The notes beneath the pieces are model-generated. The model ran no database searches. It saw nothing but the letters and a program-made list of their open reading frames with translations, and was not told where the DNA came from. A stretch of 60,249 bases of DNA, from IMG/VR virus record IMGVR_UViG_3300023210_000037, positions 1 through 60,249 of that record. One strand, 5' to 3'. Numbering within the stretch: position 1 is the first letter of the stretch; each line of letters begins with the position of its first letter. This stretch comes from a virus. Position numbers and translations under genes: made by a program. Shown here in pieces: positions 1 to 20,352 of this stretch.

Positions 1-185
1 CTGCAGGATACAAAAAAGATGTAGAATTAGAAATGTTAGATCCAACTGGTGTTGTGGTACAAAAATGGATTTTACAAGGAACACAGATTAACGATGCAGA
101 TTTTGGTTCTCTAGGATACACAGAAAACGAATTAGCTACTATCGATGTCACTTTTAGATTTGATAGAGCAATAAATGTTTTTTGA
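1..185 (+). CDS. 19: Tail tube protein, C-terminal end (gp19-like, partial)
   Basis: The window opens inside this gene; reading from base 3 there are 60 codons to TGA at 183-185. The visible end contains ELEMLDPTGVVVQKWIL, then GTQINDADFGSLGY and ATIDVTFRFDRA, a beta-strand pattern typical of the end of T4 gp19-type tail tube subunits, where the last strands complete the tube ring around the channel. A tail tube gene directly before tail chaperone and tape measure genes fits the common order of tail modules. A strong terminator follows 27 bases after the stop, so this is the last gene of its transcript. The start lies outside the window. The family call is from pattern recognition of a short fragment. 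Confidence 0.65.
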   Translation, partial: AGYKKDVELEMLDPTGVVVQKWILQGTQINDADFGSLGYTENELATIDVTFRFDRAINVF

Positions 186-286: not shown

Positions 287-2689
287 ATGAAAAAAATAAT
301 AATTAGCGAAGAACAATATAAAAGGGTATTTCTGTTGGAACAACCTGCACCTAAACCTTCTAATACTAAAGGGGATCCGAGTCAATTCGGCACACAATCG
401 TGGCAGGAACAACAACGGGATAAAAGAACCGAAAAAAATAAAAGTTTAGGTATTAGTAATAAAGACCCATACGGATGGGCAACATACGGAGCCCCAAATA
501 AACAAACGGGTACATATAAAAGTGGTAGTGATACATTTACATATGGTCCATTAGACCCTATTCCATCCGAATCAATTGATGCATTAGAAGAGGCTGCCGA
601 ACTTGAGATGAAGGATTCAATGGATAGAATAGCTTCGCTAGATGCTGAACAGGAGAAAAATAGTTTTGGTAATTGGAAAGATAAAAGTGGTTTGGATGCA
701 TCACAAGCAAAAATCGATTATTATCAAAACCAGATGGACGCAACTGGTGCTGGTAAATTAGGTGTAGATGCGAAATTCAATGCTAATAAAACGATACGAC
801 AATTCGGTACTGGTGGTGAAGATAATTTATTGTTGCAAAGTGCGAAAAATTTCAATAAATTGATTAGTAAGGAATGGCAAGAATATTTAATCAAGAGTCA
901 GTGCAAACCCGTTGTAAGGAAAAGATGTGCATCCCATTGTGGTGATAGTAAAGAGGAAGTCATGAAAAATGCTGAAGCTAAGAAATGGTGGAAAGAAGGT
1001 TTGGAAGAGGATTACGTGACTGCAAACGGTAAATATGGTCTTGCGAACAGGGCGGGTTGGTTTAATTCACTGAAAATTTGTGGGAAAGCTGCTGGAAAAG
1101 AAACATATGTGAAAGACAGAGTTGGTTTCGATAGGCGAAAAGAGAGTCAGTGGTGTATATGGAAGATGGTAGAGTCTACTGATACTGTTTGGAAAAAAGA
1201 TTGTCCCGGATGTTTTAATAAATCAAGCGGTGGACTCTTTGTTTACCCCTTAGTAGAGGATATGTCAGATTGGAATGTAACAAATAACCTTAATACCTCT
1301 AAATATACATATCACTGTGGGTGCGTTAACAATATGACCAAATCATTGGCTGGGTGTCCAGACAACAATCTGACTAGGTTTGGGATGGAATCTGCGGCTT
1401 TTATAAGGGGGATTGATCAAAAACAAGCTATTCATGCAGCTAAAAATGAACCATCATTTTTTGAGAAGCTTGCTGATTGGGGGGTATATTGTATCTCGGA
1501 TCCTCATTGTCTAATAGATGTGGCATCCGTTGTAGTATTGGTAGTTCCTGGTATTGGACCATTACTATCAATGGGATTAGATGTTGCAAATGGTATAATA
1601 TATGGTGTCGAGGGTTACATGTCAGATAATAAAACGGATAAATATGCTAATTATACTGCTGGTGTTTTAACAATTGTCGGTGGGGTTGCAACAGGTTATA
1701 AGTTAGCAAAAAGTTTAGCTAAAATAAAAAACGCATCTCCTAAAGTTATGAAATTTACTGATGATTTCTTAGGGGAAATAGCTGAGAAATACGGGAAAAA
1801 AGGAACTGTAATTGATGATGTTATTAAAAAGGATATCGATGATATGTTTAAGAAAAAGATGTTATCACAAGGTTTAACCAAAGCTGAAGTAAAATATTCT
1901 GTAGATATAATTAGTGATGTTTCAAAATTCATAGGGGACAAGAAAAGTTTAAAAACTTATGTGAATGGGTTACAATCACTAGAAAATAAGTTTGATAAGG
2001 TGAAATTACAACAAGTATTTGCTAAAAAAAGATACCAAAAACTTTTAAAAGAGTCCGATGGTGATGTTTTAATTGCGTTAGATAAATATAGTAAATTACC
2101 TGAAGGGAAAATGGTATTAACTCAGTTAGGTTTCTTTGCGGCAGGGGAAGCCTTATTACCTGGGTTAATAAATGGTTATATTACAGATAAATCATTATCT
2201 GGTGATTGGGGACCGCGAAAGTTAGTAGAAGCATTGGGGTATGATTGGGTTCAAACAAAGAAGATTTTTGGTGCAATTTCTAAAACAAATGAGGATGGTA
2301 GTAAAAATGAGAAATGGACTAAAGAAAAATCTATTGCTGATAATACACTATTACAGAAAGCTATAAATAGTGGGTGGAGACCATACGAGATGAGTGAGAA
2401 ATTAAATCCAACTACTAATGAAAGAATTCCAGTGCCGGAAAAGTATCAAACAGAACTTTATAAACAAAATATAAAGGGTGAAAAACAACGTAATATAGAT
2501 CAAGCTCAAGGAATGGGTAAGGGTTATGACAAAACAATGGATGATATTAATAAGGGTGAGCTGGAAGGGTTAACAGATGAAGAAAAGAGAAGAATAGAAA
2601 AGGAAGGAAAAAAAGAAAGAGAAAACTTCACTCTTCCACTTGATGACGCATCAGAGCAATATTTTATAAAAAATTATTTCAAGATATAA
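287..2689 (+). CDS. Unknown 800-aa protein with capsid-targeting-like leader
   Basis: No family is recognised. The N-terminus (SEEQYKR at residues 7-13, then LLE at 16-18) matches the leaders of the proteins starting at 2860, 3510 and 19573, and resembles T4 capsid-targeting sequences that end in an (L/I)xE prohead protease site. The first half has scattered cysteines (about residues 205-360, including pairs CPGC and CGC). Residues 405-470 are hydrophobic and glycine-rich (VVPGIGPLL), like membrane-associated regions ahead of toxin domains in polymorphic toxins. The C-terminal third is charged and helical. ATG at 287 is preceded by a late promoter motif. Inference: an internal head protein, possibly ejected with the DNA. 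Function unproven. Confidence 0.6.
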   Translation: MKKIIISEEQYKRVFLLEQPAPKPSNTKGDPSQFGTQSWQEQQRDKRTEKNKSLGISNKDPYGWATYGAPNKQTGTYKSGSDTFTYGPLDPIPSESIDALEEAAELEMKDSMDRIASLDAEQEKNSFGNWKDKSGLDASQAKIDYYQNQMDATGAGKLGVDAKFNANKTIRQFGTGGEDNLLLQSAKNFNKLISKEWQEYLIKSQCKPVVRKRCASHCGDSKEEVMKNAEAKKWWKEGLEEDYVTANGKYGLANRAGWFNSLKICGKAAGKETYVKDRVGFDRRKESQWCIWKMVESTDTVWKKDCPGCFNKSSGGLFVYPLVEDMSDWNVTNNLNTSKYTYHCGCVNNMTKSLAGCPDNNLTRFGMESAAFIRGIDQKQAIHAAKNEPSFFEKLADWGVYCISDPHCLIDVASVVVLVVPGIGPLLSMGLDVANGIIYGVEGYMSDNKTDKYANYTAGVLTIVGGVATGYKLAKSLAKIKNASPKVMKFTDDFLGEIAEKYGKKGTVIDDVIKKDIDDMFKKKMLSQGLTKAEVKYSVDIISDVSKFIGDKKSLKTYVNGLQSLENKFDKVKLQQVFAKKRYQKLLKESDGDVLIALDKYSKLPEGKMVLTQLGFFAAGEALLPGLINGYITDKSLSGDWGPRKLVEALGYDWVQTKKIFGAISKTNEDGSKNEKWTKEKSIADNTLLQKAINSGWRPYEMSEKLNPTTNERIPVPEKYQTELYKQNIKGEKQRNIDQAQGMGKGYDKTMDDINKGELEGLTDEEKRRIEKEGKKERENFTLPLDDASEQYFIKNYFKI

Positions 2690-2699
2690 TATAGGTTAT

Positions 2700-2876
2700 A
2701 TGAAAAAAAGAAGAGAGAAAATATTAAACATTAAAGAAAGATTAAACGAAGTTAGTAATCTTTTCGGAAAACATGGGATTAATCCGGAACACGATATATT
2801 TATTAAAGAGGAATTAAATGGGTTCATAAAAGAATTAGAAGAAATTGAAAATGACATTAATGACGAAAAAAAATAA
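2700..2876 (+). CDS. Small charged helical protein, 58 aa
   Basis: The short frame from ATG at 2700 to TAA at 2874-2876 begins 11 bases after the preceding stop and fills the gap to the next gene. The product is rich in Lys and Glu (KERLNEVSNLFG, KEELNGFIKELEEIEND) and should form one or two amphipathic helices or a short coiled coil. It overlaps the start of the next gene by 17 bases if that gene begins at 2860. No family is recognised; the tight spacing and unbroken charged helix support a real gene. Confidence 0.55.
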   Translation: MKKRREKILNIKERLNEVSNLFGKHGINPEHDIFIKEELNGFIKELEEIENDINDEKK

Positions 2877-3510
2877 ATTAATACAAGAAGAGATTAATAG
2901 AGTTAAAACTATAATGGGTTTAACTGAACAAATGTCAGTTGACGGTTGTATTGATTACTTAGAGGACTTAAATTATAATATTGACGATCCCAGTGAAGAG
3001 GTAAGTGGAACGGAAAAGTGTTTGAAAAAGAACATTTTAAAATGTGTGGTATCTGTACTTAAAGCCAATAATGTTGATGAAAACCAAATTATTACTCAAC
3101 CATTCACCAATGGGGGTAAATGTTATACAAGGGTTACTAATTCCAAAGATAGAGGGAGATTGAAAAGTGGAAACTTAACGTTTTGGGAGAATGGGGTGTT
3201 AACTTATATAGGTATATTTAAAGGTTGGCAGAAAGTTCCAGATAATATCACTAATGAAGGAGATGTTAAAATAGGTAAATTCCAATTTGAGGGAAGGTAT
3301 AGATGTGACCCAAGTAGTGGTAAAATAACATATAGTTTTTTCAAACTTGCTGGGTTAAGGAATGACAAGAATAAGGTAACAGACCCTTATGAATTTGAGC
3401 CTAAGGACTCTAGTGGTGTGGGTGTGGGATACCATATTGGGGAGTATTTCAAAAATGATAATATAGGTGAAAGTGGTGATGTAATGAGAATAATTAATAA
3501 GATGATATGA
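2860..3510 (+). CDS. Unknown 216-aa protein with capsid-targeting-like leader
   Basis: ATG at 2860 is preferred over TTG 2845 and ATG 2851 because it places the shared leader at the very N-terminus as in the sister proteins: KLIQEEINR at 6-14 followed by LTE at 21-23, a candidate prohead protease site. The mature part would begin around Gln24. The remainder is a soluble domain with five cysteines in its first 80 residues (CIDYLED, EKCLKK, LKCVV, GKCYTR) and a later beta-rich segment (FWENGVLTYIGIFKGWQKV, KFQFEGRYRCD). No known family is recognised. The stop overlaps the next start (ATGATGA), which suggests coupled translation. Probably packaged inside the head, by inference from the leader only. 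Confidence 0.6.
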   Translation: MTKKNKLIQEEINRVKTIMGLTEQMSVDGCIDYLEDLNYNIDDPSEEVSGTEKCLKKNILKCVVSVLKANNVDENQIITQPFTNGGKCYTRVTNSKDRGRLKSGNLTFWENGVLTYIGIFKGWQKVPDNITNEGDVKIGKFQFEGRYRCDPSSGKITYSFFKLAGLRNDKNKVTDPYEFEPKDSSGVGVGYHIGEYFKNDNIGESGDVMRIINKMI

Positions 3511-5270
3511 TGAGAAAAAAATATAACACATTATCAGAAGAAATGAATCGGATGAAGTCATTATTCACCGAAGAGAGATTATATGGGAATCTTGTGGATA
3601 AACCATTATTAACCGAAGCAAATTTTGCTAGGTTTATTGACAATGCTTTCCTTAGAAACAGTGGTAAATTATTTAAACAAGTTGATACTAAAACTGGAAG
3701 AATGATAGAACGAGCTGTTCAAAAAGAGATTCGTAGTTTCGATGATTTTCGATTACATTTAGAAGAGTTTGGGACGATATGGAAAATGATGATGACTCCT
3801 CAAGAATACGTACAAGGTTTGGCACACATTACTTATTTATCTAAAATGGAAAAAGCTGGAAGGTTTGCAGAGAATAGTGTAAGACGTCCAGATGGTGTTT
3901 TTGAGAAACTTAATATCTATGAACCACTTACACCTGGTGGGAGAGCATATATTGATTTGATTCCAGAAGGTGGGGGATTGCGATCTTTGGCAATGATTAA
4001 GTTTTTTGATGAAACAGATATTGGTCCACTTACTAAAATTAAGAATGCTAAAGGAGAGGAAGTGGTTGTACATAGGGCATTTGATCCAGAATCAAATCAG
4101 GTATCACTTATAGATACGGATAGCAATGGTAATTTAACATTACTTGATGGTAAGGGAAAGAAAGAACCGTTATTAGACGGAGATGGTAACCCTATTAAGG
4201 GTAATACTATTAAAAATACTACTGACGTTGAATATGTGGAGGTATTTACAAAAGAAGAATTGGCTAATCAATTGGATAACCAAGCAAATAACACAATTGG
4301 TGAGGGTGGTGTACAGGTTTTGGGTGATGGCAATGTTGTTCATATTAACATTGGTCAAACTCCAGTAAAAGAGGTCGTTGATGAAACAATAAAAACAACA
4401 TCGGAAGCTATTGCTAAGAAGACTGGAATCGCTGGGGGATGGCAAAAGGTTAAGAAAGTATTAAAATATGTGGGAGTAGATAATCAGATTTTGGCAACTA
4501 TTTTTAATCCCTATGTTATCGGAGGGGTTAAGAAATCAGGGTTGATGAAAAAGCGGGGAACTGTTTTTGGGGTTAGAATGACTCTGCATTATTTGGGGTA
4601 TTACTTTTTCATTCACAAACTTTGTGATGCCTCTAATTCAGAAGAAGGTGGTGAAGATCCTGAGCCTTACAACCTAATGAACCTCTATAATGAAGAGGAT
4701 TGGATATTCTCACCATGTTTTTATCCATTATGGCCTGTAAGATTAATTACTGATTGGAGTTGGATTACGGGTAGATTAAATAAATCACAAAAGAATTTCT
4801 GTAGAAAATTTGATACTGACGAAAATGGGAAAAGAACAAAAAGTGAAGAATGTGCCGGATTTTTTCAAAAGATTGATAATGCATTAAAAGGTGTAGATGA
4901 TAAAAATAATAGTGTGTGGTGTGAAAAATATAAGGGTAAATCTTCTGAAGAAGTATTTAGTGCACAAATTGAAGAAGCACTTGACTTAATGGATACTGAG
5001 GAAGTGACAGCGGGGAAAGAAAAAACCATTGGGGATATTATGGGAAATCTAGGGTTTAACACAGACAAAGCACTTGAAAAATTTAAAGCTTCTCCTTCAT
5101 GGGAGGAATTCGATTTGAGGTGTTCGGCCAATCAAATACAATGCGATCCGCTAGAATTTGATAATAACGGAAAATCAAATGAAGTAGAATATATACCAAG
5201 AGAAGGATCGGACGGAAAAACTGAATATGTAGTGTCAAAAAATGATACTACCGAACTTGACGATCTTTAA
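3507..5270 (+). CDS. Unknown 587-aa protein with capsid-targeting-like leader
   Basis: Two adjacent ATG codons (3507, 3510) overlap the upstream stop. The leader TLSEEMNRMKSLFTEE again combines the EExNR core with an Glu-ending cleavage-like site (FTE). Residues about 50-110 are basic and helical (RMIERAVQKEI, WKMMMTPQEYV). A hydrophobic segment lies around residue 365 (LHYLGYYFFIHKLC), and the C-terminal third has several cysteines and acidic stretches. No enzyme motif was found. With its two leader-bearing neighbours it forms a three-gene cassette between the tail tube and the gp26-like gene. Most likely an internal head protein; T4 internal proteins differ in sequence, so the function remains open. 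Confidence 0.58.
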   Translation: MMRKKYNTLSEEMNRMKSLFTEERLYGNLVDKPLLTEANFARFIDNAFLRNSGKLFKQVDTKTGRMIERAVQKEIRSFDDFRLHLEEFGTIWKMMMTPQEYVQGLAHITYLSKMEKAGRFAENSVRRPDGVFEKLNIYEPLTPGGRAYIDLIPEGGGLRSLAMIKFFDETDIGPLTKIKNAKGEEVVVHRAFDPESNQVSLIDTDSNGNLTLLDGKGKKEPLLDGDGNPIKGNTIKNTTDVEYVEVFTKEELANQLDNQANNTIGEGGVQVLGDGNVVHINIGQTPVKEVVDETIKTTSEAIAKKTGIAGGWQKVKKVLKYVGVDNQILATIFNPYVIGGVKKSGLMKKRGTVFGVRMTLHYLGYYFFIHKLCDASNSEEGGEDPEPYNLMNLYNEEDWIFSPCFYPLWPVRLITDWSWITGRLNKSQKNFCRKFDTDENGKRTKSEECAGFFQKIDNALKGVDDKNNSVWCEKYKGKSSEEVFSAQIEEALDLMDTEEVTAGKEKTIGDIMGNLGFNTDKALEKFKASPSWEEFDLRCSANQIQCDPLEFDNNGKSNEVEYIPREGSDGKTEYVVSKNDTTELDDL

Positions 5271-5337: not shown

Positions 5338-6108
5338 ATGGAAGATAAAAGTTTTGTAGACCCGAATTATACACCTTCAGAGTATAAGGTACCGTATGAT
5401 GTAATTGAATTGCCGTCACAAGGCATTCTATACCCCAATGGAAAATCATCAGTTAAAGTAGAGTATTTAACTGCATATGATGAAAACATATTAACATCTC
5501 CAAACTTATTAAATAATGGTAAGTTTATCGATGTATTATTAAAAAATAAAGTTAAAGAATTAGGTTTCGATGTGGATGAATTACTAGCTGGGGATCGAAT
5601 AGCTATATTATTATTTTTAAGGGCAACAGGATTAGGTCACGAATATCATCAGTTGGTAATCGATGAAACTGGAAAAGTTGTTGAGGGGGTTATTGATTTA
5701 ACTATTTTAACTACTAAAAAACTTGAAATTACACCTGACAATAACAAAGAATTTGATTTTGTGTTACCAACCTCAAATAAAAAAATTAAATTTAGGTTAT
5801 TAACTGGTAAGGATGAATCTGACATTGACATTATGGATAAAGAAAATGAAGAAAAAAATGATGGTGTTTCCACCTCATCTTCATTACGTTTGGAACGAAG
5901 TATAATGGAAATAGATGGTGTCAGAGATAAAATGAAAATCTCACATATACTTAAAACATTAAATCTTTTGGATGTTAGAAAATTTAAAAAGTATGTAACT
6001 GAAATTGAACCAGGAATAGATTTTAACACAACAGCTAGGATTCAGGGGGGTGAATCCGTATCTTGCTTTCTTAGATTGGGACGGAGTTTTTGGAATCCTG
6101 AAATATAA
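5338..6108 (+). CDS. 26: gp26-like baseplate/tail assembly protein
   Basis: The 256-residue product matches the T4 gp26 baseplate family by pattern: an early VIELPSQGILYP motif (about 23-34), LTAYDENILTSP (about 44-55), KFIDVLLKNKV, then LLAGDRIAILLFLRATGLGHEY (about 82-103). The zero frame ends with an atypical tail (SVSCFLRLGRSFWNPEI) straight after a run of six G at 6045-6050, whereas another frame continues with protein-like sequence from 6050 to 6241. This looks like a tail-chaperone-type programmed frameshift upstream of the tape measure gene. The product would act in baseplate hub or tail assembly. An intergenic gap of 67 bases precedes it, with no clear promoter motif. Confidence 0.72.
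   Translation: MEDKSFVDPNYTPSEYKVPYDVIELPSQGILYPNGKSSVKVEYLTAYDENILTSPNLLNNGKFIDVLLKNKVKELGFDVDELLAGDRIAILLFLRATGLGHEYHQLVIDETGKVVEGVIDLTILTTKKLEITPDNNKEFDFVLPTSNKKIKFRLLTGKDESDIDIMDKENEEKNDGVSTSSSLRLERSIMEIDGVRDKMKISHILKTLNLLDVRKFKKYVTEIEPGIDFNTTARIQGGESVSCFLRLGRSFWNPEI
6043..6051 (+). promoter_or_regulatory. Candidate programmed frameshift site (CAG GGG GGT)
   Basis: Zero-frame codons are CAG 6043-6045, GGG 6046-6048, GGT 6049-6051. A glycine tRNA on GGG can slip +1 to 6047-6049 and re-pair perfectly, and reading then resumes at GTG 6050. A -2 slip gives the same new frame. Six consecutive G are striking in DNA this AT-rich. Confidence 0.5.
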
Positions 6109-6241
6109 TAATTTTACCACAAATTATTTAAATGAAATATTTATTTTAGTGAAACATGGATTCACATATAGTGATGCAATTATTATGCCAACTCATATTC
6201 GTAAGTATTACATTAACATTTTAAGACCTAAAGAAGAATAA
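6050..6241 (+). CDS. gp51-like C-terminal extension, probably made by frameshift
   Basis: This frame is +1 (equally -2) relative to the gp26-like gene and overlaps its end. It codes for AFLDWDGVFGI, then a helical segment ending FTYSDAIIMPTHIRKYYI. The last part resembles the end of tail assembly chaperone second domains (short acidic helix, M-P, then R-x-Y). It could start independently at GTG 6050, but it has no ribosome site and the G6 run at 6045-6050 sits exactly at the junction, so a fusion with the preceding protein is more likely. Without it, 171 bases between 6108 and 6280 would be unexplained. In T4, gp26 and gp51 are separate neighbouring hub-assembly proteins. Confidence 0.6.
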   Translation: MNPYLAFLDWDGVFGILKYNNFTTNYLNEIFILVKHGFTYSDAIIMPTHIRKYYINILRPKEE

Positions 6242-6255
6242 TCCACATTTTCTTA

Positions 6256-6263
6256 TATTTATA
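6256..6263 (+). promoter_or_regulatory. Probable late promoter TATTTATA
   Basis: TATTTATA, extended to TATTTATAAATA, sits 24 bases before the ATG at 6280. It therefore contains both the window's recurrent octamer and the classical T4 late element TATAAATA. Confidence 0.6.
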
Positions 6264-6279
6264 AATAAAACATAAGAAT

Positions 6280-6948
6280 ATGATTAATCAAAATAACTTA
6301 GAAAAACATAACAGGTTAGTTGAGGAAATTAATTCCGATATTGATGGGTTATTGAATGAGGTTGATTTAAGCCCCATGGAATTATTAAAAGATGCTGGTG
6401 CCTTTTTAACTGGTGGTCCTGCAGGAGTTGTACGTAGAAGAACCGCAAAAGCTATAGCAGATGAGTTGGAGGATGAAAAAAAGAAAAAGGAGAAAAAACT
6501 AAAGAAAAAAGAAAAAGAAGCAGAGGGGGTTTCTAAAGAAGATAAAGAAACTAAAGAAGGGATATCATCCCTTAGAGATGAGTTAGCAGAATTAAAAAGG
6601 TTAATTAAGGGTATGCAGGATACGAAAACTGGTGATTTATATTCCTATATTGAGGTTGACTTCCCAGAGGAAATTACATTAAATATTAAAAAATACGGTA
6701 ATAAAGAAATGAATCGTAAATTAAGTGGAAGAATGTTTTTCAATGTAGATTCAATTAATGACAGATACAAATATATTGATATGAGGACTAAAAGTTTGAC
6801 GGAATCCTTTTATTTTAGGTTGCATTATAAAACATTAGATGTCGGCAAAAAACAATCTGGTAAAATAAGATTAATATATAGAAGAGGTAAAGAAAATTTT
6901 AAGGGGGACGAGGAAAGTTGTAACTTTGAAATTAAATCTCTTAAATAA
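6280..6948 (+). CDS. Unknown 222-aa protein with Lys/Glu coiled coil
   Basis: No family is recognised. Residues 1-45 are helical and acidic, followed by a glycine-rich FLTGGPAGVVRRR segment (about 43-55). Residues about 62-110 are an extreme Lys/Glu coiled-coil stretch. The C-terminal half is beta-rich (LYSYIEVDFPEEITLNI, FRLHYKTLDVG, KIRLIYRRG). It lies between the tail chaperone genes and the tape measure gene, where tail assembly or baseplate factors are common, and has its own late-type promoter. A late tail-morphogenesis role is inferred from position only. Confidence 0.6.
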   Translation: MINQNNLEKHNRLVEEINSDIDGLLNEVDLSPMELLKDAGAFLTGGPAGVVRRRTAKAIADELEDEKKKKEKKLKKKEKEAEGVSKEDKETKEGISSLRDELAELKRLIKGMQDTKTGDLYSYIEVDFPEEITLNIKKYGNKEMNRKLSGRMFFNVDSINDRYKYIDMRTKSLTESFYFRLHYKTLDVGKKQSGKIRLIYRRGKENFKGDEESCNFEIKSLK

Positions 6949-6957
6949 TATTAAATT

Positions 6958-7092
6958 ATGAATGTAAATAAATTTTTATTAGCAAAACTTAAAAATGTAA
7001 GTGATCGTATTGATCAAGTAGAAAAAAAACTTTCTAAAGAGGTGAAAGGGGATAAAAATACTGGAACTAAAAATAAAAAAACTAAAAAATAA
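6958..7092 (+). CDS. Short basic protein, 44 aa
   Basis: An ATG at 6958, nine bases after the previous stop, opens a 44-codon frame ending at TAA 7090-7092, six bases before the tape measure start. The product has one helix with a heptad-like pattern (LAKLKNVSDRIDQVEKKL) and a lysine-rich tail (KNKKTKK). The compact head-to-tail spacing supports a real gene. No homologue is recognised; binding to the tape measure or to nucleic acid are both possible. Confidence 0.5.
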   Translation: MNVNKFLLAKLKNVSDRIDQVEKKLSKEVKGDKNTGTKNKKTKK

Positions 7093-7097
7093 TTTTT

Positions 7098-8981
7098 ATG
7101 GATTGTCCTGATGATGTGTATGAAGGTGTTGATTGGGGAAAACAAATTAAATGCCTTAAAATAGAAATTGAGGGTCTAAGAAAAGAGATCGAAAATACCA
7201 CAGTTAGTGCTGGTAAAATGTCCTCAAAACTGGGTGATACCTGGAATGTTCTGAAAGATATGAAGGGTACTATCGTATCCATGCGTAATGAGATGATGAA
7301 ATTTGTTCAGTCCGCTGAACAACAATATAAGTTAGGTGAGGCAATAGCAAAGGGGTATAAGGATACTGCAATAAGTATAGGGTTAAGTACAAAACGAAGT
7401 GCAGCTTTATCTCAAGAATTTAAGGGGGCATTAACAGAAATTTCTAAGTTTGGTGGTGATATTAGTGATGCAGAAAGAATATATAAAGAGTTTGCCGATA
7501 GTTCAGGTAGAGTAAGAATATTAGGTGATGAAGAAGTATCTAATATATTTAAACTTGAAAAAGCAACTAATTTATATGGTGATCAAGCAACTAGTTTATA
7601 TGAGACATTAGATTTAATGGGTGTTTCTAATGAGGAAGCAACAAAGAGGATGGTAGAATTGGTTACAGAATCACAAGCTATAGGGTTAAATTCTTCTAAA
7701 GTGTCAAAAATGATGGCAGCGAATATGAAATCTATGCAATCATATTCTTTTAGAGGGGGAGTTAGAGGGATGACAGAAATGGCTAAACAAGCTGTTAAAA
7801 TGAGAATTGATGTAGGTGATGTTTTACAAATGGCGGATAAGTTCTACCAACCAGAAGCGGCGTTAGAGGCAGCGGCAAATTTACAAATGTTAGGTGGTGA
7901 TATTGCTAAGGCATTCGGTGATCCTTTTGAAACGATGTATTTGGCTCGTAACAAACCAGAAGAATTGGCGAAAAGATTACAAGACATGACTGAAAATATG
8001 CTTCAATTTAATGAAGTATCTGGAGAATATGAATTACCTGCCGAAGCAAGAATGCAATTAAAATCTGCTGGAGAACAATTGGGTATTAATACTGAAAAGA
8101 TGGTGGAGATGGCTCGTCAATCATCAAAAATGAAAGATATTAAAAGTCAATTATCTGGGTCTATATTTAGTGAAGATGAGATGGAGGGTATTTCCTCATT
8201 GGCTAGAATGGAAGATGGGGAGTTTAAAGTTGATTTTAGAGATAAAAATGGTGAAAAGGTAACTAAATCTATTGATGAATTAACAAGTGGACAAGCAAAA
8301 ATGTTATTAGAAGCACCTGAAAATGAGGTAGAATATATGGATGAGATGTTGTACCAATCTCAAAGAACGAATGAAACTTTAGACAACATGTATAAGAGTT
8401 TTGAATTTGGTTTTGTTCAAGATATTGATTATTATAAGGCAATTGAAACATCGACAAAAGAAAGTATTAAACAACTGGATGATCTTGGGGTTTCAATAAA
8501 AAAATTAGGTAAAGATGGTCTGGGACAAACTTGGGTAAGTGGTAAAGGAGACGAATTTAAAGATAAACAAAAGAAGTTGGATGAGGCAATGTCATCACAA
8601 ATTAAAAGTATTACTGGAATTGTTGACACATTGAGTATTAACCCTACAGATGGTTCTAAAATAACATTTGATGGAAATAACAAATTAATATTTAAAAATG
8701 CTGTATCTCCATCATCAGACGCCCAACTTATGCCAGATACATCTGGTGTTGGTAATAATAAAGCTACGGTGAATCAAACAACGAGCACAATAAAAATGGA
8801 ACCATTGGAAATTAATTTCAATATAAAGGGTGATACTCATTTAAGGGATGTAGCTACAAAAGAACTAATGGAAAATATAGCTCTAAAAGCTGTAATGCAG
8901 ATAAAAGAAAATAGTGGAGTCCCTACAGGAAAAGAAGCGGTAGATCTATTGAATATAATGAAGATAACATCGGTTGGATAA
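7098..8981 (+). CDS. Tail tape measure protein (gp29-like position)
   Basis: At 627 residues this is close to T4 gp29 (590 aa) and would set a tail of roughly T4 length. The N-terminal 50 residues form a coiled coil (IKCLKIEIEGLRKEIENT). The middle is a long Ala/Met/Gln-rich helical region with short repeats of a membrane-active flavour (ALEAAANLQMLGGDIAKAFGDP, about 254-275), typical of tape measure cores. The C-terminal region is more hydrophilic. Position directly downstream of the gp26-like chaperone/frameshift genes is the classic place for a tape measure. Sequence families of tape measures diverge strongly, so the call depends on architecture, length and position together. Confidence 0.75.
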   Translation: MDCPDDVYEGVDWGKQIKCLKIEIEGLRKEIENTTVSAGKMSSKLGDTWNVLKDMKGTIVSMRNEMMKFVQSAEQQYKLGEAIAKGYKDTAISIGLSTKRSAALSQEFKGALTEISKFGGDISDAERIYKEFADSSGRVRILGDEEVSNIFKLEKATNLYGDQATSLYETLDLMGVSNEEATKRMVELVTESQAIGLNSSKVSKMMAANMKSMQSYSFRGGVRGMTEMAKQAVKMRIDVGDVLQMADKFYQPEAALEAAANLQMLGGDIAKAFGDPFETMYLARNKPEELAKRLQDMTENMLQFNEVSGEYELPAEARMQLKSAGEQLGINTEKMVEMARQSSKMKDIKSQLSGSIFSEDEMEGISSLARMEDGEFKVDFRDKNGEKVTKSIDELTSGQAKMLLEAPENEVEYMDEMLYQSQRTNETLDNMYKSFEFGFVQDIDYYKAIETSTKESIKQLDDLGVSIKKLGKDGLGQTWVSGKGDEFKDKQKKLDEAMSSQIKSITGIVDTLSINPTDGSKITFDGNNKLIFKNAVSPSSDAQLMPDTSGVGNNKATVNQTTSTIKMEPLEINFNIKGDTHLRDVATKELMENIALKAVMQIKENSGVPTGKEAVDLLNIMKITSVG

Positions 8982-12982: not shown

Positions 12983-15900
12983 ATGTCGAATAAAACCCCT
13001 AAAGTAGAAAATAAAGGTGCAGGTTTATTTTTAGTTGACCCCAACCCACCTGGAAGTGGAGTATTACCTGCAGAGGACATGTTTATATATGTTAAATTCA
13101 CTGCAACAGAGAGAAGTAGGGGGGTTGTAACACTAACAGATTCAGACTCTTCAATAAATGAATCTAGAGATGGGGAAATAAATTTTGTTGCAACTGAAGT
13201 TAAATATGATGCATCGGGAGAACCATTAAAAAATTTAATGGGTAAAACAGAATCTTATGCCACCACAAATTACACAGATATAGGTGGTGTCAAAAATTCA
13301 TATAGTAGTGGTTCATTAGAAGGATTTGGAATTAAAAATATTTCAATAAAATATAATGCTAGTTTAGTTCCTCAAGTTGATATTTCATTTACAGATGTGA
13401 GAGGAAGTGCACTATTTGATGTTATCGAACAAGATAATAGAAAATCCCCTTACAGTTTATTTTTCAAAATGCCATACCCAATTTTTAATCTTACGGTAAA
13501 GGGTTATTTTGGTAATCCCGTTGAGTATTGCTTACATATGGTTAATTGGACATCTAAATTTGACCCGGGTACAGGTAATTTTGATATAACCGCAAATTTT
13601 TTAGGTTTTCAACAAGCATTTTTAGCGGATATGACAATAGGGAATGTAATAGGCGTTAACAATACTGATTTAGGTAAAGAAGCGTTGGCTAATTTACCTA
13701 TGAAGGCACAAGATCCTGTATACCCAGATAAAATGATTGACATTGGACCTACACCATCATTGGATTCATTCATAAAAAAAATCAGTAAATTACAAGTTGA
13801 TTTAGAATTTCTTAAATCTAATGATGATACCTATAAAAAATTAATTATACTAAACACACAAAAGAAAAAACTAAAACGTATACAATCATTTATAGGTGCA
13901 CCCATCCCAAAGGATGTGGGCAACCCAACCACAAAAACCCCATATAGTGAGATACCCAACGACAAAGACGTTATAGTAACATCAGAAATCCAAGGTGAAG
14001 GTTCATTAATATTAAACCAAGAATATTTATCTATTAGAGATTACTTAATTTTTAAATATTCATCAATTGTTTCTGTAAATTACTACATGAATACAATATT
14101 AGATTTATTAGAAGACTATCAAAAGTTTAAGGTGGTTAATTATAAACAATTAAAAACTGGTATTGTTGATGGTATAATAATAGACGGTGATACCATAATT
14201 AATGAAACGATTTTTCCCATTAGTAGAGGAGACGGTGAGATAATAGATTATTTAACTGGTTTAGAAGTATCTACCGCAGGAAGTACTCTAACAACTAAAA
14301 CCGCTGGAAAAGGGTATCCGTCATTTCCTACTACATTAATAGGTGCAATAGATGGATTAAAACAACCAAGTCCCATTTCAAGTCAATTCCAATCTCCCTC
14401 TTCTCTAAATGGGGAATTCCAAAATGGAGATGTAGATATATCGCAATTTGTAAGACCAACATCCGCCAAGAGCCAATTCTTATCGAAAGATCCTGTTTTT
14501 GTGTTAGATTTTAGAAAAATGAGATCTGAGGTTAAAAGAATGATAATTGATATTGATAAACAAATAAAGGAAGATACAAAGTCTGTTAATGTTAAAATTA
14601 ATGAAGAATTAAAAAAGTCTATCGGTTATAACCCTACTGTTAAAACAGTTTTTGAGATATTATGTAATAATGTACAATCTTTAGTGGATGTAACATATAA
14701 AGTTGCTATGCAAGCAGAAGGGCAAACTAAAGAGAGAGCAAAAGAGTTAAAAAAGAATGTTCTTGATACTGATATAGACACTGATGAATCAGGTGATTTT
14801 AAGAACTCAACTATATACGCATTTCCCAAGATTATACAGATTTCAGATGCCGGTGAAGCACAAGAAAAATATGTGGGTAGTAAGGATTTAAATTTAACCA
14901 CTAATTCATTTCCTGAAATAAAATTTATTGAGGATGTTGCTAAGGGGATAACAAAAAGTAGTTCAGAATTAAGAACGATTAGAAAACAAACAAGTAAATT
15001 AAAACAACAAGGTTTCGATACTAATTCTTGGGTACCAAATAACCCAATAGATGTTGCAAATGACAACCCATTTTTATTTATTAATAGTATAGAATCACAA
15101 GGTGACGAGGAGATAAAAAAACAATTTTATAATATTTTATTAACTAGGTACGCAGTATGTAAAAATTATAGTAAAATGCCAGAAACCCAGTTATCGGCAT
15201 TTGGTATATTTGACGCAATAGATGCGAAGAAATCTATTTTTGATACTACTGTTAGAAAAGTATTATCCACAGCATTAAGTAAGTCAGGGTCAGATGCTAT
15301 AATATCTAATGGGATAACAAGTGGATATGTGATTGAACAAAGTAATATCCCTATAATAAACGAAAGTGGCGATGATTTACCTAAACTTGGTGACATAGAA
15401 ATTAGTGGTTTTAGAAATGATGATGTAGAGTATATTGAAGTAGAAGATAATGGTGGTAAAATTATTGGTTCAAAATCTGCATTATGGAAGGAAGTAACGA
15501 ATAAGAAGAAATATGATAATATATTTGGGGAAAAAGTACAAACTGGATTCGATAAAACCATAGGTAGTTATACACAATATCTAAATCATTTAGTTTTTGT
15601 AAATGCTAGTTACGATGTTTGGGGGGGGAAAGTAAATAAGAAATTAAAAAAAGGACAAACTGCGAATAATACCTTTTCTATAAAAGATAATGATATAACC
15701 CGAATCGATGGAGGTCAGCCACCCCCTGAAGGTGCAACTAATAATGTGGATACACCGATTAAAACTGACTATATAAATGTTTTAAGCGCTGGTAGTGGTA
15801 GCGGTGGTGGACAACAAGTTGAGATACCAAGATATTTAACAACTGTATCTCCGTCATCCAACCTACCTGAAGAGTCTAGCATATTATATAATAATCCACA

Positions 15901-19572: not shown

Positions 19573-20352
19573 ATGAGTAAAAAAAATCTATTAAAAGAAG
19601 AATTAAATCGACACATGCAACTTTTGGAGTATACATTCTATATGCCTGAAGTGGAAAATGACGATGAAGAAGATAACTTATTGTTTGATAATTCAGTCAA
19701 TTTATATGAGCAAGATCCAATACCGGGTGTTGATACACCTGAAGAAGGTAATGAAGAAGGTGACCCATTTGCTACACCTGAAGAAGGAGCAGTACCAGAA
19801 GAAGGTGCGGAAGTTGACCCATTTGCAACACCAGAAGCAGGTGGTGAATCAGAAACAGAACCAGATATTGACCCATTTGCCGCTGAAGGTGAAGGTATGG
19901 AGGTTGCTGATGAATTTGCAACTGAAGAACCTGCTGATGAGGAAACAGTTGAGGTAGAGGTTACAGATATAGTTGATAAAGCAGAAGAAACAAGAACAGA
20001 AATCGAAGGTCTTACATCCAAAATGGAAGAATTAATGGGTAGTTTTAGTGAGTTATCTGATCAAGTAAGTGGTATGGATCAAGTTATTGATAAGATTGAT
20101 GGTTTAGAAAAAGAAATTGAAAAAAGAAACCCAACCCCAGTAGAAAAATTAGAAATGAGGTCTATGGATTCATTCCCTTATAGTGTTAAATTAACAGATT
20201 ATTGGGAAGATAAAGAAGGTTATGACACAGGAGAAGGAAATGATGAAGAGGAATACGTAATAACTAAAAAAGAAGTAGACGATTACAGCTCATCCGCTAT
20301 AAGACATTCATTTGATTATGATGTCAATGCGGAAGACGATGAAACCTATTAA
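19573..20352 (+). CDS. Acidic leader-bearing protein, possible head core/scaffold
   Basis: The 259-residue protein starts with LLKEELNRHMQLLE, the same EExNR...LxE leader seen in the proteins at 287, 2860 and 3510. Residues 55-125 are extremely acidic and contain three DPFA units at residues 64, 82 and 100, an exact 18-residue period. A coiled coil follows (about 140-190: IEGLTSKMEELMGSF, QVIDKIDGLEKEIEKR). The end is acidic again. Acidic composition, coiled coil and a cleavable-looking leader fit a prohead core or scaffold protein, but no direct resemblance to T4 gp22 can be shown. A strong terminator follows. Confidence 0.6.
   Translation: MSKKNLLKEELNRHMQLLEYTFYMPEVENDDEEDNLLFDNSVNLYEQDPIPGVDTPEEGNEEGDPFATPEEGAVPEEGAEVDPFATPEAGGESETEPDIDPFAAEGEGMEVADEFATEEPADEETVEVEVTDIVDKAEETRTEIEGLTSKMEELMGSFSELSDQVSGMDQVIDKIDGLEKEIEKRNPTPVEKLEMRSMDSFPYSVKLTDYWEDKEGYDTGEGNDEEEYVITKKEVDDYSSSAIRHSFDYDVNAEDDETY
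19762..19887 (+). repeat. 54-base in-gene repeat encoding DPFATPE-type units
   Basis: GACCCATTTGC occurs at 19762, 19816 and 19870, exactly 54 bases (18 residues) apart, each followed by Glu/Gly-rich coding sequence. The array lies inside the acidic protein gene and probably arose by in-frame duplication. Confidence 0.7.

Follow-up and report, generated by a model that had tools for sequence, protein, structure and literature searches.

In this study, four proteins encoded in a 60,249-base virus record (IMG/VR record IMGVR_UViG_3300023210_000037, positions 1 to 60,249; this whole stretch is hereafter called the window) were found to carry short N-terminal leaders joined to unrelated bodies. 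The window represents part of the genome of a T4-like myophage that is uncultured and has Flavobacterium phage immuto as a relative, and the leaders begin at positions 287, 2860, 3507 or 3510, and 19573. With a probability of roughly 70%, we regard these leaders as new capsid-targeting propeptides that work like the T4 sequence MKTYQEFIAE. In the proposed mechanism, the leader (class A, class B or the variant at 19573, as defined below) would bind the prohead core or scaffold and carry its protein into the prohead; a gp21-type prohead protease would then cut on the C-terminal side of the Glu in [LIV]xE, where the next residue is usually Gln, Ala, Gly or Ser, and the cut would free the mature protein within the head, from which it could exit with the DNA at infection. 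Cleavage of the leaders is strongly implied; a head location of the leader-bearing proteins and the binding of the leader to the core are inferred, and the proteins may be ejected into the host. A capsid-targeting and cleavage role had been suggested in a preliminary description of the window, and it gains support here from the detachable leader, the conserved T4-type (L/I)xE, the unrelated bodies, and a gp21-type protease with matching capsid and scaffold sites in relatives, with the reservations given below.

For the comparisons, 25 related contigs in full, 8 in part, immuto and the window were assembled into a set of 2.34 Mb, in which 2183 open reading frames (ORFs) were called with a simple script. 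The window carries genes for a gp26-like hub, a uvsX-like recombinase and a gp32-like protein, besides other tail and replication genes; its UvsX shares 83–100% identity with those of many uncultured contigs and 43% with that of the cultured immuto (NC_055915). Immuto is the nearest cultured relative and has a complete T4-like head module comprising prohead protease, scaffold-like and capsid proteins. Because some of the contigs nearly duplicate each other (for example G001/G005, G003/G007 and G006/G016), clusters of bodies were considered a better count than ORFs; clusters 33 and 34 of the body clustering were script artefacts and were excluded.

Leader-bearing N-termini were collected across the related contigs. 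Two leader types were distinguished, class A with the consensus NEEIxRMKSLFxEERLYGNLV and class B, carried by the 287 protein, with the consensus SExQYKRxFLxE. The class A regular expression matched 64 ORFs at the N-terminus vs. one internally, and these leaders were spread over 27 body clusters, while the class B expression gave 17 N-terminal vs. 11 internal matches. Further, when IMG/VR was scanned with a DNA pattern that represents the core K-x-x-[FLMI]-x-E-[ED]-R-L-[YF]-G-N, 48 stretches were returned, and the core lay at most 32 residues from an in-frame Met in all ORFs except one. In this lone exception, a 1199-residue ORF of contig G025 (14308–17907, L241, minus strand), a class B and a class A protein are fused in frame and the class A leader with LINE|Q is retained in the middle of the ORF, although an internal start is also possible. 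The ratio of 64 N-terminal to one internal match and the closeness of the IMG/VR core to an in-frame Met indicated that the sharing of leaders is not due to chance; as the expressions were tuned on the leaders themselves, internal matches, shuffles and the comparison with bodies are the fair controls. The four N-termini read as described before, and the phenomenon is larger than reported. The claim of one pattern on four proteins was borne out for 2860, 3507 and the 19573 variant, which share class A, but not for 287, which is class B; likewise, the core described was present, but that of class A is longer and includes EERLYGNLV, a block missing in 2860 and in about 40% of its family.

The leaders share a layout in which the core is followed by a spacer of variable length, [LIV]xE and mostly Gln, Ala, Gly or Ser. 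In 23 of the 27 class A clusters, a wide site, [LIVMFY]xE[QAGS], lay no more than 30 residues past the leader, compared with a mean of 6.2 and a maximum of 14 in shuffles and with 16% of non-leader N-termini, and the strict site [LI]xE[QAG] in 19 of the 27 (shuffles: mean 2.6, maximum 7). In MAFFT alignments, the P1 Glu was aligned in 53 of 56 proteins (16/18, 19/19 and 18/19 in the 2860, 287 and 3507 families, respectively), and each of the three exceptions has a Glu one residue away. The residue after the invariant E18 of the 287 family is Gln in 15 of 19 members, the site is kept in those members of the 2860 family that lack the EERLYGNL block, and all listed members of the 19573 family have the leader and LYE, LNE or ITE before QDP.

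In the window, where all four leaders are on the plus strand, the class B leader MKKIIISEEQYKRVFLLE (287–340), followed by Q, has a predicted cut after E18, and the class A leader without the EERLYGNL block, MTKKNKLIQEEINRVKTIMGLTE followed by Q (2860–2928), after E23 (LTE|Q). For the full class A leader MMRKKYNTLSEEMNRMKSLFTEERLYGNLVDKPLLTE followed by A (3507–3617, start at 3507 or 3510), the cut is predicted after E37 (LLTE|A), and for the class A-like variant MSKKNLLKEELNRHMQLLEYTFYMPE...NLYE followed by Q (19573–19710) after E46 (LYE|QDP), with an alternative LxE at QLLE19. Cut sites at residues 16–23, as given in the preliminary description, were thus retained for 287 and 2860, but replaced for 3507, where LLTE|A at E37 is preferred to FTE at 20–22, and for 19573, where LYE46|Q is preferred.

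The spacer between core and LxE ranges from none to more than 20 residues. As it varies while P3, P1 and P1′ stay, a protease site fits better than a helix end, which bears on the alternative that the leader is a docking tag for another partner, such as an assembly chaperone, a host structure or a replication compartment, that is not cut by the prohead protease and whose LxE is a conserved helix end. Such a tag would agree with the predicted helical nature of the leader, with a small leaderless cassette ORF that could be a chaperone, and with class B-like leaders on many genes without a known role, about 50 more such N-termini being present across the relatives; given the kept residues behind a variable spacer, we consider it improbable. 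A common amphipathic helix was also considered as a description of the leader and was rejected, as the hydrophobic moments were inconsistent (0.15–0.43).

Leaders and bodies were then compared for conservation. Mean pairwise identities in the alignments were 0.52, 0.66 and 0.48 for the leaders of the three cassette families vs. 0.18, 0.22 and 0.15 for their bodies, respectively, so that the leaders are about threefold more conserved than the bodies across contigs, and all fully invariant columns of the 287 family (M1, E8, Q10, F15 and E18) fall in the leader. Comparison of the 32 distinct DNA sequences that encode the core gave 1.4, 1.0 and 5.5 differences at the first, second and third codon positions, respectively, and this pattern was also seen between genes of one genome. 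Since the leader DNA varies mostly at third codon positions, these results show that selection acts on the leader protein and not on the DNA. A recent duplication or exchange of gene starts between neighbours, in which the leader has no protein function, would account for the sharing of leaders by neighbouring genes of one cassette; it was rejected, because third positions vary freely, even within one genome, and leaders are so much better conserved than bodies, and we give it hardly any credence.

A gp21-like protease, whose presence had been anticipated, was found as a Peptidase_S77 prohead protease in contigs G001, G015, G016, G018 and G026 and in immuto, and judging from these relatives and the more distant immuto, the phage of the window probably has one of its own. 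The T4 capsid protein gp23 reads FGSFLTE|AEI at residue 65, consistent with its 65-residue propeptide (PMC5694885), and the major capsid protein of the relatives has ASALLTE|ATD or ASALLNE|STS at the equivalent place, residue 60. The LLTE|A of the 3507 leader is identical to the ALLTE|A of this capsid site from P4 to P1′. Similarly, the scaffold of the relatives contains SLNE|Q or SLKE|Q as well as repeated VSE|S, IKE|S, ITE|S and LNE|S, and an MSE|S lies close to the C-terminus of their protease, reminiscent of the auto-cleavage at the C-terminal end that was reported in SPN3US (PMC10052503). Capsid, scaffold and leader sites are thus of one kind, and therefore one protease specificity could explain all of them. 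As a separate observation, near-identical repeats, YGGNKGDESRSHRDYMEEG, are present in the scaffold gene (G001, 5860–7443), and their copy number varies from contig to contig.

Immuto carries a leader of its own, FDLKKFLVENKLTxNSKLLKE, on five proteins, each with LxE; in the isolate collection this leader matched immuto alone. One of the genes lies between protease and scaffold and two directly upstream of the terminase, and overall they sit at head and replication genes, outside the tail cluster. The immuto gene at 117631–118632 of NC_055915 is annotated as a cob(I)alamin adenosyltransferase; as it carries the phage's own leader, this suggests that the annotation is unreliable.

In the window, the genes that start at 287, 2860 and 3507 make up a cassette flanked by tail-tube and gp26-like hub genes, and in all 21 relatives in which tail-tube and hub genes lie close together a cassette of mostly leader-bearing genes is found between them. 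Four kinds of gene are typical of it: a variable class A gene, in some cases encoding a MORN or peptidoglycan-binding domain; a large gene of class B whose product has a hydrophobic region, represented by 287; a small one of class A, represented by 2860; and one of 500–870 residues, represented by 3507. Immuto has no gene between tube and hub. Class A genes are also found outside the tail cluster, namely the 19573 family and several others, such as those at 14779 and 17229 of G016. The 19573 family directly precedes the gp32-like gene. At the equivalent place in immuto, the gene carries immuto's own, different leader; no similarity was found between the body of 19573 and this immuto gene.

Contractile injection systems use N-terminal loading signals on unrelated cargo encoded beside tail-like genes; to our knowledge, these signals have no conserved LxE and involve no prohead protease. 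In analogy, a tail-associated role is the main rival to capsid targeting: the leader would dock proteins to the tail (tube end, hub or tape-measure complex), the cassette proteins would be tail-delivered envelope-penetration or effector proteins, and LxE would be part of the dock or be cut at another step. The position of the cassette between tube and hub genes in the 21 relatives, the peptidoglycan-binding domain of one cassette family, and the gene after the hub, which also has an N-terminus ending in LxE, all agree with such docking. It is nevertheless unlikely in our view, as the conserved Glu and P3 residue match sites in the capsid protein and scaffold of the relatives, class A genes (19573; G016 14779 and 17229) and the immuto leader-bearing genes lie away from the tail cluster, and no confident tail or baseplate family was recognised among the leader-bearing proteins scanned.

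Known families on class A bodies were PG_binding_1 and MORN only. It had been asked whether the motif is equally common on enzymes and tail proteins; by inspection, no class A match is a recognisable tail or replication protein, but two peptidoglycan hydrolases have class B-like leaders: an M23 peptidase (Peptidase_M23; L207, 11654–13909, minus strand) carries MKRILVTESQYSKLVKLLNEQ, and an NlpC/P60 and PG_binding_1 protein (L101, 10552–11574) carries MKIKITEQQLIKIKE.

Several points weigh against capsid targeting. The 60-kb window fragment has no protease or capsid gene and no head module, and the cassette is located inside the tail gene cluster. The wide site is absent within 30 residues in 4 of the 27 class A clusters, a related LxE being visible in 2–3 of them, and P1′ differs, as it is most often Gln in the leaders and Ala or Ser in the capsid protein. 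The two peptidoglycan hydrolases with class B-like leaders may act elsewhere. Finally, no cultured phage with class A or B leaders was found in the isolate collection, where class A gave one weak chance-level match and class B none.

Similar to the T4 internal proteins IPI, IPII and IPIII (PMC9026906), the proteins described here combine a short N-terminal segment ending in (L/I)xE with otherwise different bodies, and in both cases the bodies evolve fast and the genes vary between phages. In T4, a ten-residue targeting sequence brings the internal proteins into the core and is removed by gp21 (PMC9026906); comparison of ipII and ipIII showed that both begin with MKTYQEFIAE|A. The present leaders have no sequence similarity to it, and as only the layout is alike, the likeness is a functional parallel rather than membership by sequence. 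In contrast to T4, the leaders are 18–46 residues long and of at least two classes, their carriers are far more numerous and much larger, and a cassette lies between tail-tube and hub genes; further, targeting, cleavage and injection were shown experimentally in T4, while here they are predicted from sequence. In giant phages of the SPN3US/phiKZ type, N-terminal propeptides of head proteins are removed after Glu by a gp21-related prohead protease (PMC5694885, PMC10052503), and gp53 and gp54, which have diverged, begin with one identical N-terminal sequence, MANFVKSKLARESVE, but the motif is mostly AxE or SxE, the propeptides are mostly much longer and the bodies are paralogous. Immuto is closer in having its own leader on several proteins with LxE; it differs in the unrelated leader sequence and the lack of a tube-hub cassette, and its annotation does not describe the leader.

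Capsid-targeting propeptides are thus already known. What is new is the families of leaders, how many and how varied the proteins are that carry them, the fixed place of the cassette and the site predicted for cleavage, none of which was described in the open-licence papers searched. Few phages are known to have internal head proteins, which are difficult to spot owing to the fast evolution of their bodies. In T4, a function in countering host restriction enzymes is now known for all three (PMC12373910), and Ip2 and Ip3 have been tested against known defence systems. A conserved leader with a cleavage site would make packaged proteins predictable from sequence alone, in this case at least 27 class A families and a second leader class from uncultured marine phages, nearly all without known function, and it yields a concrete prediction of the prohead-protease site for this phage group. 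More tentatively, at slightly less than even odds, the cassette could be a dedicated, fast-evolving set of cargo genes with a fixed place between tube and hub. A common leader code would direct its products to the head, and they would be delivered together as a set that comprises the large protein with its hydrophobic region, proteins with peptidoglycan-binding domains or MORN repeats, and others without a known family. If true, such a cassette would amount to an effector system carried in the virion and marked by a legible address tag, from which packaged proteins could be predicted across uncultured T4-like phages.

The predicted mature proteins of the window, all encoded on the plus strand, were characterised as follows. 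The mature class B protein (341–2689) is large, has a hydrophobic region and belongs to no known family; the structure model of the 287 protein was of low confidence (mean pLDDT 48), too poor for a fold search. The mature 2860 protein (2929–3510) is small and contains Cys, with a folded domain from about residue 50. In its AlphaFold2 model (mean pLDDT 83), the leader is a low-confidence helix (52–64) outside the folded domain, the body is confident (mostly 81–96), and a fold search with this model gave no match at E ≤ 0.001. The mature third cassette protein (3618–5270) matched no known family. The mature 19573 protein (19711–20352) consists of an acidic region and a coiled coil, with weak coiled-coil matches only, and is perhaps a prohead-core protein or cargo.

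A small conserved ORF without a leader (2700–2876, plus strand) also lies in the cassette and overlaps the start of 2860. Similar ORFs occur in G034, G024 and G015, in the latter two also between the class B and the small class A gene, and the product is perhaps a chaperone. On the left, the cassette is bordered by the end of a tail-tube (gp19-like) gene (33–185, plus strand), which was too short for an automatic search and was assigned by eye, its position and C-terminal sequence fitting the tube gene before the cassette in the 21 relatives. On the right lies the gp26-like baseplate hub gene (5338–6108, plus strand), which matched PHROG 150 (baseplate hub, E 2.1e-7) and adjoins the cassette in relatives; its match to the Pfam family T4_baseplate was weak, below the cut-off. 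Within the cassette of G030, an opposite-strand gene (L250, 7324–7884) encodes a signal peptide of bacterial type, as read by eye, and looks like an insertion. The gene after the hub (6280–6948 in the window), which is also present in relatives, represents a family with variable N-terminal helices, most of which terminate in LxE or LxEQ (NNIIKEVIIDIDNLIVEQ is an example), and by sequence these N-termini look like a further leader type.

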